A stretch of DNA of 58,413 bases. It comes from Ruania albidiflava DSM 18029 (lineage in GTDB: Bacteria > Actinomycetota > Actinomycetes > Actinomycetales > Beutenbergiaceae). The stretch covers positions 1 to 58,413 of the forward strand of contig NZ_ATWL01000019.1 in the NCBI RefSeq assembly GCF_000421225.1, in the 5' to 3' direction. Below the pieces are notes generated by a model. That model was not told where the DNA came from, made no database searches, and saw only the letters and a program-made list of their open reading frames with translations. Numbering within the stretch: position 1 is the stretch's first letter; every line of letters starts with the position of its first letter. Positions 37,761-43,117 of this stretch are shown in pieces. Position numbers and translations under genes: made by a program.

Positions 37761-39566
37761 CTACTCCTCTCGTTGCCCGGCAGCAGCCTGAGCATAGTGC
37801 TGCGACTGGGCGTGCGCGTGCCGAGCCAGCGCCCGCCAGAGCTGCACGGCCAGCTCCGGGTCGGAGTGCTCCAGGTCGTCGATGGCCTGCGCATCCAGCA
37901 GCATCACCTCGACCGGCCCGGCGGCCTTGGCGGTCGTGGTCTGCCGGTCCTGGTCGCCCAGGGCGAGATCTCCGACCACCATCCCGGCGGTGAGCGTGGT
38001 GACCGGCACCCGGTGCCCGCTCGCGTCCGTACCGATGGTCACGATCCGCCCGGAGAGGATGAAGTAGATCCCGCCGAACCGTTGCCCCACCCGGCGGACC
38101 ACCTCTCCGTCGGAGTAGCTGCGTCGCTGCATCCGGGTCGCCAGTGCGGCGGCGGCACCCTCGTCCAGCAGGTCCAGCACCGGCGAGTCGACCACCGGCA
38201 CGAGCCCTGGGCGTGGCCGGAACCCATGCTCGGCCAGCAGCCAGTTCTCGCACCAGGCGACCGCCCGGTCGCGCGTCTCCAGGTTCGGCACCGGTGCGTC
38301 GGTGAACGCCTCGGCGATGGACTCGTCCGGGTCCACGAGCACCAGATGGCGTTGGTCGCCGGTGAGCTCGACCCCCAACGCCCCGAGCATCCGCAGGGCC
38401 ACCTCGCTGACCTCGTCCACCCGTCGTGCGTCGAGCACCACCACCTGGATCTCGGCACTGAGCCGGCTCACCTCCCGCACCACCGACTCGGTGCCGGCGA
38501 AGAACAGGTCTCCGGAAAGCTCGATGACCAGCACCCGGTGCCCGTAGGTGACCAAGATCTCGTGTGCTTCCGTGCTGCGTCGGATGGTCGAGGGGGCTCG
38601 GTCGATGGTGTAACGGGCGCGGATGGCGGACCGCCCCATGCGCGCGGCCCGGACGAAGTGCATCTCCATGTCCCGGGAGATGCGCCGGCAGGTGGCCACA
38701 CCGCGCACGCTGTTGCCGTGCGGGTCCAGGGGAGGGGAGTAGACCGCCAGACCGGCCTGGCCGGGAAGGACCGCGACGATCCCGCCGCCGACCCCGGACT
38801 TCGCGGGCATGCCGACGTTGCTCACCCAGTCGCCGGCGTCGTCGTACATCCCGGAGGTCATCATCACCGACAGCACCCGTTCTACCGCCTCCAGCGGCAG
38901 CACCTCGGTGCCGGTGACCGGGTTGGTGCCGCCGTTGGCCAGCGTGGCGGCGATCATCGCCAGGTCCCGGCAGGTGACCTGCACGGCGCACTGCCGCAGG
39001 TAGTTCTCCAGCACAGTGGTCGGGTCGGTCTCGATGATCCCCACCGAGCTGAGCAGGTAGGCGAGGGCATGGTTGCGGTCGCTGTGCCGCAGCTCAGCCT
39101 GCAGCACCCGAGCGCTGCGGCGCAGCGTCCGGCCCGCGAAGGCTGCGTAGGTCTCGTCGATCCGCTGGATCGCTGACCTGCCGCCGGACCCCTTGATCAT
39201 GGACACCACGGCCAGGGCACCTGCGTTGATCATCGCGTTCGCCGGCCGTCCGGTGAGCGGATCCAGGGAGATCTCGTTGAACGGGTCGCCGGAGGGCTCC
39301 AGGTCGACCTTCGCGTCCACCCGTGCCGTGCCGGCGTCGCTGAGCGCCAGACCGTAGGTGAGGGGTTTGGAGATCGACTGCAGCGCGAACTCCTTGGCCG
39401 TGGTGCCCACGGTGTAGACGTAGCCGTCCACTGTGGCCAGGGCGATCCCGAAGTCGTCCGGGTCGATCCGGGCACGTCGCGGCCGGACCGGGTACGGCAG
39501 CCCGTCCCGGAGCTGGGCGATGTCCGCGTGCAGCTCCTCCAGGTAGGCGACGATGGGCGACTTCAT
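37761..39566 (-). CDS. glsA: Glutaminase A fused to STAS and cyclic-nucleotide-binding domains
   Basis: This 601-aa protein has a serine-dependent glutaminase domain (about 1-300) with the catalytic S64-x-x-K67 in LQSISKP, NAMINAGALAVVSM and SGVGGGIVAVLPG. A STAS-like domain follows (about 325-430, VLVIELSGDLFFAGTESV). The C-terminal cNMP-binding domain (about 465-590) has GQRFGGIYFILSGRIVTIG and GMVVGDLALGDQDRQTTT. It releases ammonia and glutamate from glutamine. The phosphate-binding cassette is degenerate, so the nucleotide may differ or be absent. The ATG at 39566 is six bases from TAGGCT (39573-39578, minus strand), indicating a leaderless transcript. Confidence 0.92.
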   Translation of the reverse strand: MKSPIVAYLEELHADIAQLRDGLPYPVRPRRARIDPDDFGIALATVDGYVYTVGTTAKEFALQSISKPLTYGLALSDAGTARVDAKVDLEPSGDPFNEISLDPLTGRPANAMINAGALAVVSMIKGSGGRSAIQRIDETYAAFAGRTLRRSARVLQAELRHSDRNHALAYLLSSVGIIETDPTTVLENYLRQCAVQVTCRDLAMIAATLANGGTNPVTGTEVLPLEAVERVLSVMMTSGMYDDAGDWVSNVGMPAKSGVGGGIVAVLPGQAGLAVYSPPLDPHGNSVRGVATCRRISRDMEMHFVRAARMGRSAIRARYTIDRAPSTIRRSTEAHEILVTYGHRVLVIELSGDLFFAGTESVVREVSRLSAEIQVVVLDARRVDEVSEVALRMLGALGVELTGDQRHLVLVDPDESIAEAFTDAPVPNLETRDRAVAWCENWLLAEHGFRPRPGLVPVVDSPVLDLLDEGAAAALATRMQRRSYSDGEVVRRVGQRFGGIYFILSGRIVTIGTDASGHRVPVTTLTAGMVVGDLALGDQDRQTTTAKAAGPVEVMLLDAQAIDDLEHSDPELAVQLWRALARHAHAQSQHYAQAAAGQREE

Positions 39567-39651: not shown

Positions 39652-40194
39652 TCAGAGTCGGGAGTGCTGGCCGAGCCCGTGGTAGGTGCGGTCGTGGTAG
39701 ACCAGCGGGGCGCTGGTGCGGGCGATCTGTGCCTCGAGGGCATGCAGGGTCACCAGGTGGCTCTCCCCGGTCGGCACGTGCTGCGCCACCCGGGACCGCA
39801 CCCACGCTGCCGCCTCGGTCAGCAACGGTTCGCCGGTTGGCAGCCTCCGGTGCTCGACCCCGGCGAACCGGTCGGTGCCGCGCCGGGCGAAGCGGGCGGA
39901 CAGGTGCGCCGAAGGAGCGTCCAGGAAGTTCACCAGCACGGTCTGCGCCTGCTGCAGCGTCTGCCAGGTGGAGGAGGAGGCGGCGATCGCGAACGCCAGC
40001 ATCGGGGGAGCAGCAGAGACGGAGATCACCGAGGTCGCGGTGAAGCCCATCGGGCCTTCCGGGCCAGCGAAGGTGATGACGGCCACACCGGCCGGGTGCT
40101 GCCGGAAGAGCTGTTTGAACCCGATGGTGTCCAGGCCGTCGGCACCCTCGGCCGAGGATGCCGCCAGCTGCTGTAGAAGATCCGTCTCGCGCAT
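39652..40194 (-). CDS. Flavin reductase-like FMN-binding protein
   Basis: This protein, about 180 aa, has a split-barrel flavin reductase fold: FKQLFRQHPAGVAVITFAGPEGPMGFTATSVISVSAAPPMLAFAIA, then VLVNFLDAP and HLVTLHALEAQI ... PLVYHDRTYHGLG. The ATG at 40194 is preferred (GGGGTG just upstream); a GTG at 40212 is in frame. It is divergent from the monooxygenase-like gene at 40726. Two-component flavin monooxygenases need such a reductase to supply FMNH2, so the pair probably works together in sulfur acquisition. Confidence 0.85.
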   Translation of the reverse strand: MRETDLLQQLAASSAEGADGLDTIGFKQLFRQHPAGVAVITFAGPEGPMGFTATSVISVSAAPPMLAFAIAASSSTWQTLQQAQTVLVNFLDAPSAHLSARFARRGTDRFAGVEHRRLPTGEPLLTEAAAWVRSRVAQHVPTGESHLVTLHALEAQIARTSAPLVYHDRTYHGLGQHSRL

Positions 40195-40312
40195 AGTGCT
40201 CACCCCGCTCACGGTAACCCGGGGCAGCGGGCTGCTGTTCCCGTGCCGGCTGGTCTCACTTGGTGAGCGGGCCCGGGTGGGGAGGGCGAGGCTGCGACCG
40301 CTGCAGCGTTGG

Positions 40313-40342
40313 TTGACACGTCATGCAACTTCTTCCTAGGCT
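40313..40342 (+). promoter_or_regulatory. Promoter of the SAM-IV-controlled unit
   Basis: TTGACA (40313-40318) and TAGGCT (40337-40342) are separated by 18 bp. This is the best consensus-like promoter I saw in the window. The start expected near 40349 coincides with the 5' edge of the riboswitch. Confidence 0.8.
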
Positions 40343-40351
40343 GTCCGCGTA

Positions 40352-40464
40352 GGTCTTGAGCGTCAGTCTTGTGGCCCCGGCCGGCTGACCGGCAACCCTC
40401 CAGATGCGGTGGGGTGCCCCGGGTGACGACCTGGTCTCGTCCGTACCGGCCGAGGCAAGCGCAG
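40352..40464 (+). ncRNA. SAM-IV riboswitch
   Basis: The conserved SAM-IV core is readable: GGTC TTGAGCG, then CCCCGGCCGGC, GGCAACCCTCC, GCGGTGGGGTGCCCCGGGTGA, and the closing GACC (40428-40431), which pairs with GGTC (40352-40355). The downstream pseudoknot/P5 part is CCGTACCGGCCGAGGCAAGCGCAG. SAM-IV elements are found in Actinobacteria upstream of methionine and sulfur genes and turn expression off when S-adenosylmethionine is high. A 16-bp palindrome, CACCGCGATCGCGGTG (40465-40480), follows at once and may be part of the expression platform. It belongs to the 531-bp gap between the flavin reductase and monooxygenase-like genes. Confidence 0.9.
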
Positions 40465-40507
40465 CACCGCGATCGCGGTGACGAGTAGAAGGAACAAGAC
40501 AGCAGCG

Positions 40508-40585
40508 ATGAACCAGGTCCGGCAGTACGTGCCCGTCTCGAGCACCGCCACCTGCGTCATGTGCTGTTGTTCCATGTCGGCCTGA
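40508..40585 (+). CDS. Cysteine-rich leader peptide ORF
   Basis: This 25-codon ORF starts at ATG 40508 and stops at TGA 40583-40585. Its C-terminal part reads TATCVMCCCSMSA, with Cys at codons 16, 19, 20 and 21. It lies between the SAM-IV riboswitch and the monooxygenase-like gene, followed by a strong hairpin at 40654-40676. In mycobacteria, poly-cysteine upstream ORFs act as cysteine-responsive attenuators of sulfur genes. The same logic is inferred here. AGAAGGA is 14 nt upstream, so initiation strength is uncertain. Confidence 0.6.
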   Translation: MNQVRQYVPVSSTATCVMCCCSMSA

Positions 40586-40646
40586 GCCGCCCTCACCCGA
40601 TGCCTCGGGCGTCCCGCCCCTCGGCATCACCCCTGGCTCGTGCGTG

Positions 40647-40680
40647 GCACAGAGCCGACGGAGTGACACCGTCGGCGTGC
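40647..40680 (+). promoter_or_regulatory. Hairpin between Cys leader and monooxygenase-like gene
   Basis: GCCGACGG (40654-40661) pairs with CCGTCGGC (40669-40676) around AGTGACA. The outer stem GCAC (40647-40650) / GTGC (40677-40680) has an AGA bulge. There is no T-tract. It is a candidate attenuation element, responding to ribosome stalling on the leader's cysteine codons 70-90 nt upstream. Confidence 0.5.
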
Positions 40681-40725
40681 CTCAGCCGGGTCGGGCCTTC
40701 CGCTCCTCACCTCAAAGGAACAGCC

Positions 40726-41760
40726 ATGACCTTCACGCGCTCGCACACCACTGCCGCCACCAGCGCAGCATCCGCCCCGCCAGCACCTGCCCCGCAGGCA
40801 CGTCCGGCCGGTCGCGTCGGGCTGCGCACCTCGCTGGTCGCCCTCGACCTGTCCGGCGCCGGTGCGCCTCGGGAGTGGCGCCGTGGCGCCGACCCGGACG
40901 CGGAGTCCTTCATCATGGGGCGCCTGGCCGGTCTGGCATCGCTGGCGGACCAGGGCGGGGTGGACCTGATCACCCTGGACGAGACCTTCCACGCAGCCGG
41001 CCAGCGCCGCCGCGACGACTGGCTCGACGGCGCGGTCGCCGCCTCCCGGCTGTCCCGGCACACCACCACAGCCACCCTGGTGACTGCGGTGCCGCTCGGC
41101 CGGACCCGCCCCCACCACGTGGCCGGAGCCCTGGGTAGCGTGCACCGCGCCAGCGCCGGCCGAGCCGGGTGGCAGCTGGAGACCGACGTTGCCGTGGCCC
41201 CTCGGGCCGTGGACGCAGTGATCAGCTCCTGGGGCTCCCAGGCTGCCCGCCCGCAGATCGTGGTCCCGGTGCGCAACGCCGTCGACGGCGAGCTGGCGGC
41301 CGCCCGGGCCGACGTCGCCCGGCTGTCCGTGGCCACCTTCGAGGAGGCGCACGCCGCGCGGGCGGCGATCCGGCAGGCCGCCGCGGACTGGGGCCGGGAC
41401 CCCGACGACGTGCAGGTGCTGGTGGACGTGCAGGCTGTGATCTCTGCAGACCGACCCAGCGCACGCGCCCGGTGGGACCTGCTCACCTCGCTGGAGACGC
41501 AGCCGCGTGCCGTGCCGCTGCGCTCGCTGGGTACGGCCGCGGACCTGGCGGACCTGTGGGGGTCGTGGGTGCACCGTGGCGGTGCGGACGGGTTCACCCT
41601 GGTCCCCGCCTCCGTACCCACCGACGTGCTGGCCCTGGTGCAGGAGGTCATCCCGGCGCTGGTGGAGCGCGGGCTGCGCAAGCCGCGGCAGGCGAAGGTG
41701 GACCGGTTCACCGGGCACAGCACCAGCCGCGCTCGCAGAACCGCCCGGGCGCGGAGGTGA
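40726..41760 (+). CDS. Luciferase-like flavin monooxygenase homolog
   Basis: This 344-aa protein resembles the bacterial luciferase-like superfamily of the NtaA/SnaA/DszA side: [84 protein letters not shown], and [14 protein letters not shown]. It is shorter than typical members and ends in a basic tail ([12 protein letters not shown]). AAAGGAA precedes the ATG. It is controlled by a SAM-IV riboswitch and a Cys-rich leader ORF. Together with the divergent flavin reductase, this points to release of sulfur from organosulfur compounds under methionine/cysteine shortage. Catalytic competence of the short form is uncertain. Confidence 0.75.
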
Positions 41761-41803: not shown

Positions 41804-43117
41804 ATGAGCGTGCAGACCGACCAGCAGCCCGCCGTCGACCCGACAGCGGACGAGCGTGCCCAGGCCGGCGTGACCGAGCTGGCGGTGCGGGCCCGCACCG
41901 CGGCGCGGGCGCTGCGCAGTGCCACCACGGCCACCAAGGATGCCGCCCTGCACGGCATCGCCGACGCGCTGGTCGCCGCTGCGGCGGAGATCACCGCGGC
42001 GAACGCCCTCGACGTGCAGCGCGAGTCCGCCGCCGGGATGAGCCCGGGCCTGGTGGACCGGCTCCGCCTGGACGAGGCCCGGATCCGCGGTATCGCCGAC
42101 GCTGTCCGTGAGCTGGCTGCCCTGCCGGACCCGGTTGGCGAGGTGGTCCGCGGACAGACCCTCCCGAACGGGCTCACCGTGCGCCAGACCCGCGTGCCGA
42201 TGGGCGTGGTCGGGATGATCTACGAGGCCCGCCCGAACGTGACCGTGGATGCCGCCGGGCTGGCGCTGAAGAGTGGCAACGCCGTCCTGCTGCGCGGCGG
42301 GTCTGCTGCTGAGGAGTCCAACGCCGTGATCGTGCGCGTGCTCCGGGAGGCGCTGGCCGCTGCCGGTCTGCCGGCTGATGCGGTCGCGTCCGTGGACGCC
42401 TACGGCCGGGCCGGGGCCCGCGCCCTGATGCGCGCCCGCGGGCTGGTGGACGTGCTCGTTCCCCGCGGCGGCACCGGGCTGATCCAGACCGTGGTGCGCG
42501 AGTCGGTGGTGCCGGTGATCGAGACCGGGGTGGGCAACTGCCACCTGTACGTGGACGCCAGCGCCGACCTGGCCCAGGCGCTGCCCATCGTGATCAACGC
42601 CAAGACCCAGCGGGTCGGGGTGTGCAACACGATCGAGACTCTGCTGGTGCACCAGGACGTCGCCGCTGAGTTCCTCCCCTCGGCGCTGTCGGCGCTGGCC
42701 ACTGCCGGGGTACACATCCACGGGGACGAGACCGCCGCCGCGCATGTTCCTGCCGACGGCCAGTTCTCCCCGGCCACCGAGGAGGACTGGGGCGCCGAGT
42801 ACCTCAGCCTGGACCTGGCGGTGCGGGTGGTGCCGGACCTGGACGCCGCCCTGGAGCACATCCGCACCTGGTCCTCCGGGCACACCGAGGCGATCTGCAC
42901 CACCGACGTCCGGTCCGTGCAGCGCTTCACCACCGAGCTGGACTCGGCGGCACTGATGGTGAACGCCTCTACCCGGTTCACCGACGGCGGCCAGCTCGGC
43001 CTCGGTGCCGAGCTGGGCATCTCCACCCAGAAGCTGCACGCCCGCGGCCCGATGGGGCTGGCCGAGCTGACCACCACCACCTGGATCGTGCAGGGCGACG
43101 GGCACATCCGCCCCTGA
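41804..43117 (+). CDS. proA: Glutamate-5-semialdehyde dehydrogenase (gamma-glutamyl phosphate reductase)
   Basis: This 437-aa protein shows the ProA pattern: [55 protein letters not shown], the catalytic Cys in [15 protein letters not shown], and the C-terminal [22 protein letters not shown]. It reduces gamma-glutamyl phosphate, the product of ProB, in proline synthesis. It is transcribed from its own leaderless promoter, consistent with separation from proB by 11.8 kb of accessory genes. A 52-bp palindrome lies 9 bp after the stop. Confidence 0.96.

Follow-up and report, generated by a model that had tools for sequence, protein, structure and literature searches.

Can one mRNA leader read two end products of sulfur metabolism? 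This question is raised by a leader of Ruania albidiflava lying before a gene for a luciferase-like flavin monooxygenase, in a window of 58,413 nt (the whole stretch of contig that was analysed). On the + strand the leader consists of a promoter-like site, a SAM-IV aptamer, an SD-like AAGGA, an upstream ORF (uORF) of 25 codons, a structured stretch of 140 nt and then the monooxygenase gene (Table 1). An initial annotation had proposed that SAM and cysteine are sensed in series in this leader. The sequence bore out this order, and the spacing described below adds that the uORF itself would lie in the reach of the riboswitch.

Table 1. Features of the monooxygenase leader of R. albidiflava and of the adjoining genes, in window coordinates.
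Feature	Position	Strand	Basis
Promoter-like TTGACA (40313-40318), 18-nt spacer, TAGGCT (40337-40342)	40313-40342	+	sequence; TTGACACGTCAT conserved
SAM-IV aptamer	40352-40467	+	RF00634, 101.7 bits, model 1-116 complete
Small hairpin CACCGC-GAUC-GCGGUG between aptamer 3' end and uORF SD	40465-40480	+	folding
SD-like AAGGA of the uORF, 14 nt 5' of the ATG (rather far)	40489-40493	+	sequence
Cysteine leader uORF, 25 aa, MNQVRQYVPVSSTATCVMCCCSMSA, ATG to TGA	40508-40585	+	sequence; relatives
4-bp hairpin, loop containing the uORF stop codon	40578-40589	+	invariant in 8 Ruania leaders
Hairpin H1 (stems GAUGCC and GGGCG)	40599-40628	+	pairing across 12 sequences
Stem A (40632-40638 with 40689-40695) around H2 (40654-40676, loop AGUGACA)	40632-40695	+	8 Ruania leaders
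SD AAAGGA of the monooxygenase gene	40714-40719	+	sequence
Luciferase-like (NtaA/DszA/YtnJ-like) flavin monooxygenase, 344 aa	40726-41760	+	profile matches
Divergent flavin reductase gene	39652-40212	-	PF01613, 104 bits

SAM-IV riboswitches, which respond to the methyl donor SAM, are a class reportedly described by Weinberg in 2008. An Infernal search, which the initial annotation had named as the check on its SAM-IV call, matched RF00634 over the full length with a score far above the gathering score of 38, and by this covariance model the element is a SAM-IV riboswitch aptamer for which SAM binding and control of an ORF are predicted. All eight Ruania genomes carried two or three SAM-IV sites, one before the monooxygenase gene and another before a gene for a SufS-like PLP enzyme. 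The leader resembles other members of RF00634 in having a complete aptamer over the gathering score and a probable sulfur-metabolism gene downstream. It differs from them in that the first downstream start codon, at the usual distance, is that of the cysteine leader ORF and not that of the enzyme gene. Between the aptamer and the SD of the uORF a small hairpin was predicted in all 12 folded leaders with differing sequences, in one genome (G007) in another register.

Upstream of the aptamer a consensus-like promoter had been annotated. The two boxes are present and the block TTGACACGTCAT was found 5' of the aptamer in 8/8 Ruania and 4/4 Occultella leaders, but the site fails the stricter consensus scan, which returned no promoter between 40200 and 40800. 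Over the -35 box, at 40313-40324, TTGACACGTCAT contains the near-palindrome TGACACGTCA, seen in all 12 of these leaders and possibly a candidate repressor site.

The 25-codon cysteine-rich ORF was recovered as annotated, and a purine-rich site precedes its start in relatives too. Its cysteine codons are clustered near the stop and conserved before a sulfur gene, as in the leader peptides of attenuators, and by this analogy the uORF is probably a sensor of cysteine supply. Actinobacterial cysteine leader peptides were reportedly treated by Canestrari in 2020. The start is not leaderless as in the mycobacterial polycysteine sORF, since it has an SD-like site and lies approximately 157 nt after the transcription start predicted from the promoter-like site. 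Between genera the uORF peptides diverge almost completely (examples are CVMCCCSMSA, MCMCLCTMA, MCCAPVARTCMR, MCMCGRPCMSV and TRSCCR) and the cysteine codons near the end persist. Among the eight Ruania sequences 31 of the 32 codons at the four cysteine columns encoded cysteine, every column containing TGC as well as TGT, and outside the cysteine stretch the peptide varied freely. Of the single-step codon differences along the whole Ruania uORF, 78 left the amino acid unchanged and 118 did not, a modest excess of the synonymous share (0.40 against 0.25 expected); for Occultella this share was 0.35 against 0.26 expected.

A sensor that reads codons accounts for this pattern better than a peptide with a fold of its own does. 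We regard it as highly improbable that the leader peptide itself senses metal, thiol or redox state through its cysteine cluster or acts in trans. Metal binding or disulfide formation is conceivable for motifs like CxxCCC and CMCMC, but the number and spacing of the cysteines vary between genera together with the sequence, some uORFs in SAM-IV leaders are tiny (e.g. MTGCRG and MTCRMPF), and two others use a known leader-peptide family; a function of the peptide was set aside because the peptides diverge. The uORFs of these two leaders (L227 and L292) reached 28.0 and 40.2 bits for NF042934 ('putative leader peptide'), above its cut-off of 27, with weak matches to the cysteine-rich leader models Ms4527A in both and Ms5788A in L292 as well. 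The peptide MNQVRQYVPVSSTATCVMCCCSMSA matched none of the NCBIfam leader models NF042934, NF042933 and NF042936, and NF042934 was found neither elsewhere in the R. albidiflava genome nor over its cut-off in any of 14 control genomes.

The monooxygenase gene was present in 23 of the 24 Beutenbergiaceae genomes (in G001 and G009 it was matched in two pieces), and in all 23 it is preceded by SAM-IV and then by a cysteine-rich uORF. Relatives by the monooxygenase protein include Ruania, Occultella, Pseudactinotalea, Miniimonas and Serinibacter. Order-wide, homologues were found at 1e-15 in 80 of 396 genomes, 57 of them outside the family. Upstream DNA was examined for 48 of these 57 genomes, with nine left out, and some of the fetched stretches end at contig ends (e.g. 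L100 and L103). Seventeen of the 48 upstream regions showed a SAM-IV at gathering score, 14 of them also with a cysteine uORF. The order thus gave 40 SAM-IV leaders before the monooxygenase or a homologue, and a cysteine uORF was recognised by eye in 37 of them, in four families; the aptamers of L083-L090 were confirmed by Infernal at 57.7-94.1 bits. The conservation of the ORF in relatives, a further check named in the initial annotation, was hence found both in the family and across the order. Across the class few genomes outside the order have this group of proteins: at 1e-20 homologues turned up in 9 of 394, including two from the family itself.

On the evidence of this conservation the joining of SAM-IV and a cysteine uORF is confirmed as a real, conserved pairing of two known sensors. 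The three SAM-IV leaders lacking a cysteine uORF were two in which the gene starts directly after the aptamer (L127 and L129) and L120, which has a cysteine-free uORF. In L120 the aptamer (599-706, - strand) is followed by an ORF of 33 aa ending in RRTDLFVRL, with no NCBIfam match, before a monooxygenase homologue. At least six homologue leaders (L092-L096 and L098) had a cysteine uORF (e.g. ending in CCRCCR) with no SAM-IV match. Here one sensor has been kept and the other lost or never gained, and the two modules are therefore separable.

We compared the uORFs with shuffled sequences and with SAM-IV leaders of other genes, both criteria having been framed after the first examples were seen. 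An SD-preceded uORF with at least two cysteines in its last 20 codons, starting 12-50 nt past the aptamer, was found in 31 of 31 monooxygenase leaders. Shuffled sequences gave a mean of 0.29 (maximum 3), and of 98 SAM-IV leaders before other genes 2 had such a uORF. A stricter criterion was applied to 202 leaders and demanded ATG or GTG 10-60 nt past the aptamer, an SD-like site, 4-45 codons and at least two cysteines in the last 12. By this count 35 of 40 monooxygenase leaders had such a uORF (mean of 50 shuffles, 0.24). The other classes gave 10/54 for metY (shuffle mean 0.20), 2/25 for others (0.08), 0/78 for SufS-like (0.16) and 0/5 for metX (0.00). With at least one cysteine the numbers were 36/40 for the monooxygenase (2.62), 21/54 for metY (1.78, including L207 and L226, which overlap a gene and are probably spurious), 3/25 for others (0.32), 0/78 for SufS-like (1.50) and 0/5 for metX (0.26). 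The leaders of other genes, 98 from the order and 64 from the class (the latter excluding L252 and L253 as duplicates), were best-scoring listed matches and not a random draw, and a few (L187) had very little DNA downstream. Gene classes and main starts were set by protein motifs chosen by eye, with 25 of 162 left as 'other', and the labels were checked by NCBIfam on one or two examples each (L137 and L288 as metY-type O-acetylhomoserine sulfhydrylase, L139 as MetX, L005 with SufS as best model below its cut-off). For L083-L090 the aptamer ends in the enrichment and pairing tests were estimated by pattern, 1-4 nt off the Infernal ends.

A cysteine uORF after SAM-IV thus also occurs before metY, in part of the sampled Actinomycetia leaders; most of the sampled metY leaders (44/54) are without a uORF of at least two cysteines. 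Six-codon ORFs without cysteine, (V)SKRMR, NQRMR and IQRMR, were seen after SAM-IV in L237, L240, L243, L244, L249, L254, L255 and L265, where the SufS-like gene is at least 120 nt away; their CGAATG core is common to many metY uORFs (CRM). Among the SufS-like leaders with a start at least 120 nt away, 8 of 9 had a uORF of this type in the same slot. Occupation of that slot by such uORFs in one family would be expected if the uORF were a mere translated spacer that couples translation or protects the RNA, with no response to cysteine. We nevertheless judge a spacer very unlikely for the monooxygenase leaders, as it leaves the strong, gene-specific enrichment in cysteine unexplained (35/40 observed against 0.24 expected, and none in the SufS-like class).

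How the two sensors are joined is suggested by their spacing. In 31 monooxygenase leaders, counted by hand, the uORF starts 19-42 nt past the aptamer with a median of 35, and in 85 other SAM-IV leaders with a start within 60 nt the main gene starts at a median of 36 nt. The uORF start therefore stands at the distance of a main-gene start, which would place the riboswitch to control translation of the leader ORF, and we infer that SAM closes the uORF start. A similar layout was seen in metY leaders with a gene start at least 120 nt away, 16 of 17 of which had a short cysteine uORF in the near slot. For the 16 metY leaders with a start 61-119 nt away the scan for a near-slot cysteine uORF found none, and one was recognised in L232 by separate inspection.

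This spacing bears on whether the two sensors act as two independent modules in series, with SAM-IV acting alone (e.g. on Rho access or transcription) and the cysteine uORF as a separate attenuator that is not under SAM control. Each module does occur alone, as the leaders described above show in both directions, but independent modules would give no account of why the uORF start is spaced from the aptamer just as the main starts of single leaders are, and we consider such independence rather unlikely. We favour, as the fairly probable reading, a nested leader with two inputs in which SAM gates the translation of a cysteine attenuator and the gene is on when SAM and cysteine are both short.

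In the nested leader the start of the uORF would occupy the place where SAM-IV elsewhere faces the start of the main gene. The SAM-bound aptamer, together with the hairpin following it, would keep the ribosome-binding site of the uORF closed, and with SAM short the uORF would be translated. If Cys-tRNA were sufficient, the ribosome would pass the cysteine codons to the stop and leave, and the structured C-rich leader would stay in an OFF state set either by Rho-dependent termination or by closure of the gene start, between which our scheme makes no choice. If Cys-tRNA were short, the ribosome would stall on the cysteine codons, a step taken by analogy with actinobacterial cysteine leader peptides, the downstream fold would shift and the gene would be expressed. 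The net logic would be expression under a joint shortage of SAM and cysteine. The product would then, together with the divergent flavin reductase, cleave C-S bonds of organosulfur compounds or S-alkylcysteines so that sulfur or cysteine is recovered, a role assigned here from the enzyme families. Whether the same AND gate holds throughout Actinomycetia, with the SAM-IV before the C-S monooxygenase and before part of the metY genes regulating a nested cysteine leader ORF and not the enzyme gene, appears to us evenly balanced.

For the RNA between the uORF and the gene, the strong hairpin of the initial annotation was found in a modified form, as structure is present but consists of several hairpins rather than one, none with a U-tract. 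A search of 40200-40800 yielded no terminator-like site, and no U-tract follows the leader structures. The leader hence departs from the classical transcription attenuator with intrinsic terminator and U-tract, and an intrinsic terminator within this interval was rejected as the output; in its absence we infer an output step by Rho or by closure of the start site. The hairpin at the stop codon keeps 3 of its 4 pairs in all 12 Ruania and Occultella leaders, and pairs that never vary offer no evidence from covariation. In H1, across the 12 sequences, 94.4% and 98.3% of the cells were paired, with one pair changed on both sides. In the eight Ruania leaders 100% of the cells were paired in stem A and 93.8% in H2, each with two pairs changed on both sides. 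For the downstream fold of these eight leaders 96.3% of the cells pair and five pairs changed on both sides, with none in any slid control; among 500 shuffles, 59 had at least as many such doubly changed pairs and 498 at least as many pair types. The loop of H2 keeps GUGACA in Ruania and Occultella while the stem changes, and could be a candidate binding or kissing site.

The stretch between uORF and gene is rich in C (C 0.43, G 0.29), its C excess ranking within the top 2.2% among stretches on the + strand of the window, a composition that might weakly favour Rho loading. The gene start, 140 nt past the uORF stop, is far for simple reinitiation. In minimum free energy folds the uORF start region pairs with the cysteine run in several leaders. 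Over 31 leaders this pairing gave a mean z of -0.6 against dinucleotide shuffles and -1.1 against synonymous shuffles (9/31 positive). It was strongest in part of the Ruania leaders, in Pseudactinotalea and in four closely related leaders of one further group (f3), was absent elsewhere, and is only suggestive. A pairing of the cysteine run with the SD of the monooxygenase gene, judged by eye, looked good in two Ruania leaders, was lost in others and was dropped.

The gene downstream of the leader was luciferase-like as annotated, with its product scoring 29.1 bits for Bac_luciferase (PF00296) against a cut-off of 27.9, and 86.8 against a cut-off of 279.7, thus below it, for the NtaA/DmoA subfamily (TIGR03860). 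The divergent gene was likewise recovered as a flavin reductase (Flavin_Reduct), and among the 23 family genomes with the monooxygenase at least 11 have a homologue of this reductase in the locus, taken with short flanks. The closest solved relatives of the monooxygenase by profile were nitrilotriacetate (NTA) monooxygenase, YtnJ (which we take to be CmoJ), MoxC and DszA. CmoJ cleaves a C-S bond in salvaging cysteine from S-alkylcysteine, by a pathway that uses a flavin reductase according to the excerpted text of PMC10863075. The proposal of a two-component monooxygenase for organosulfur use stood at the level of the family, through these profile relatives, and the monooxygenase is a probable sulfur-scavenging enzyme with a substrate class assigned by family.

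A leader combining SAM-IV with a cysteine leader ORF was found in no report of the open-licence literature among the matches listed, nor in the excerpted texts of PMC8632094, PMC9094748, PMC13236596, PMC2965389 and PMC9232105, in agreement with the initial annotation, for which no such leader was known. SAM-IV riboswitches and cysteine leader peptides are each known. Two inputs in one leader are found in the mgtA leader, with a Mg2+-responsive RNA and the MgtL peptide, and in tandem riboswitch gates such as SAM-I with B12, and neither kind is known to combine SAM with Cys-tRNA.

Cysteine leader peptides have been described before cys operons of Mycobacterium and Propionibacterium acnes and before cbs of Bifidobacterium longum, with no terminators in the text excerpted from that study (Seliverstov 2005, PMC1262725). 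Our uORF is like them a short ORF with a cysteine run near the stop, before a sulfur gene and with no intrinsic terminator; unlike them it follows a riboswitch, has a leadered start of the SD type and encodes a peptide with no match in NCBIfam. In Mycobacterium tuberculosis the Mbox riboswitch directly controls the conserved uORF rv1805A through a translational platform and Rho-dependent termination, and is a precedent, with Rho, for a uORF under riboswitch control (PMC12810186). It differs in responding to Mg2+ and not SAM, and in the excerpted part of that article rv1805A is not described as an amino-acid attenuator. Riboswitch and uORF also set expression together in the B12 riboswitches of M. 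tuberculosis, which have another ligand and uORFs that either lie within the aptamer or overlap the gene, with no codon-specific sensing described in the excerpts of PMC11260477.

With leaders of this kind, actinobacterial cells may sense two end products of sulfur metabolism on a single mRNA. If SAM does gate the cysteine attenuator, this would be a compact gate for two metabolites that is used repeatedly, before two gene classes and, for the monooxygenase, across four families of the order. The long distance between some SAM-IV riboswitches and their gene would then be explained, and one mRNA would show how actinobacteria balance the methionine branch against the cysteine branch.

Two neighbouring genes were labelled by eye. 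A proA-like gene (41804-43117) lies directly 3' of the monooxygenase in many relatives and has no evident link to sulfur. On the - strand the product of an ORF of 601 aa (37761-39566) resembles a glutaminase joined to STAS-like and cyclic-nucleotide-binding-like regions.
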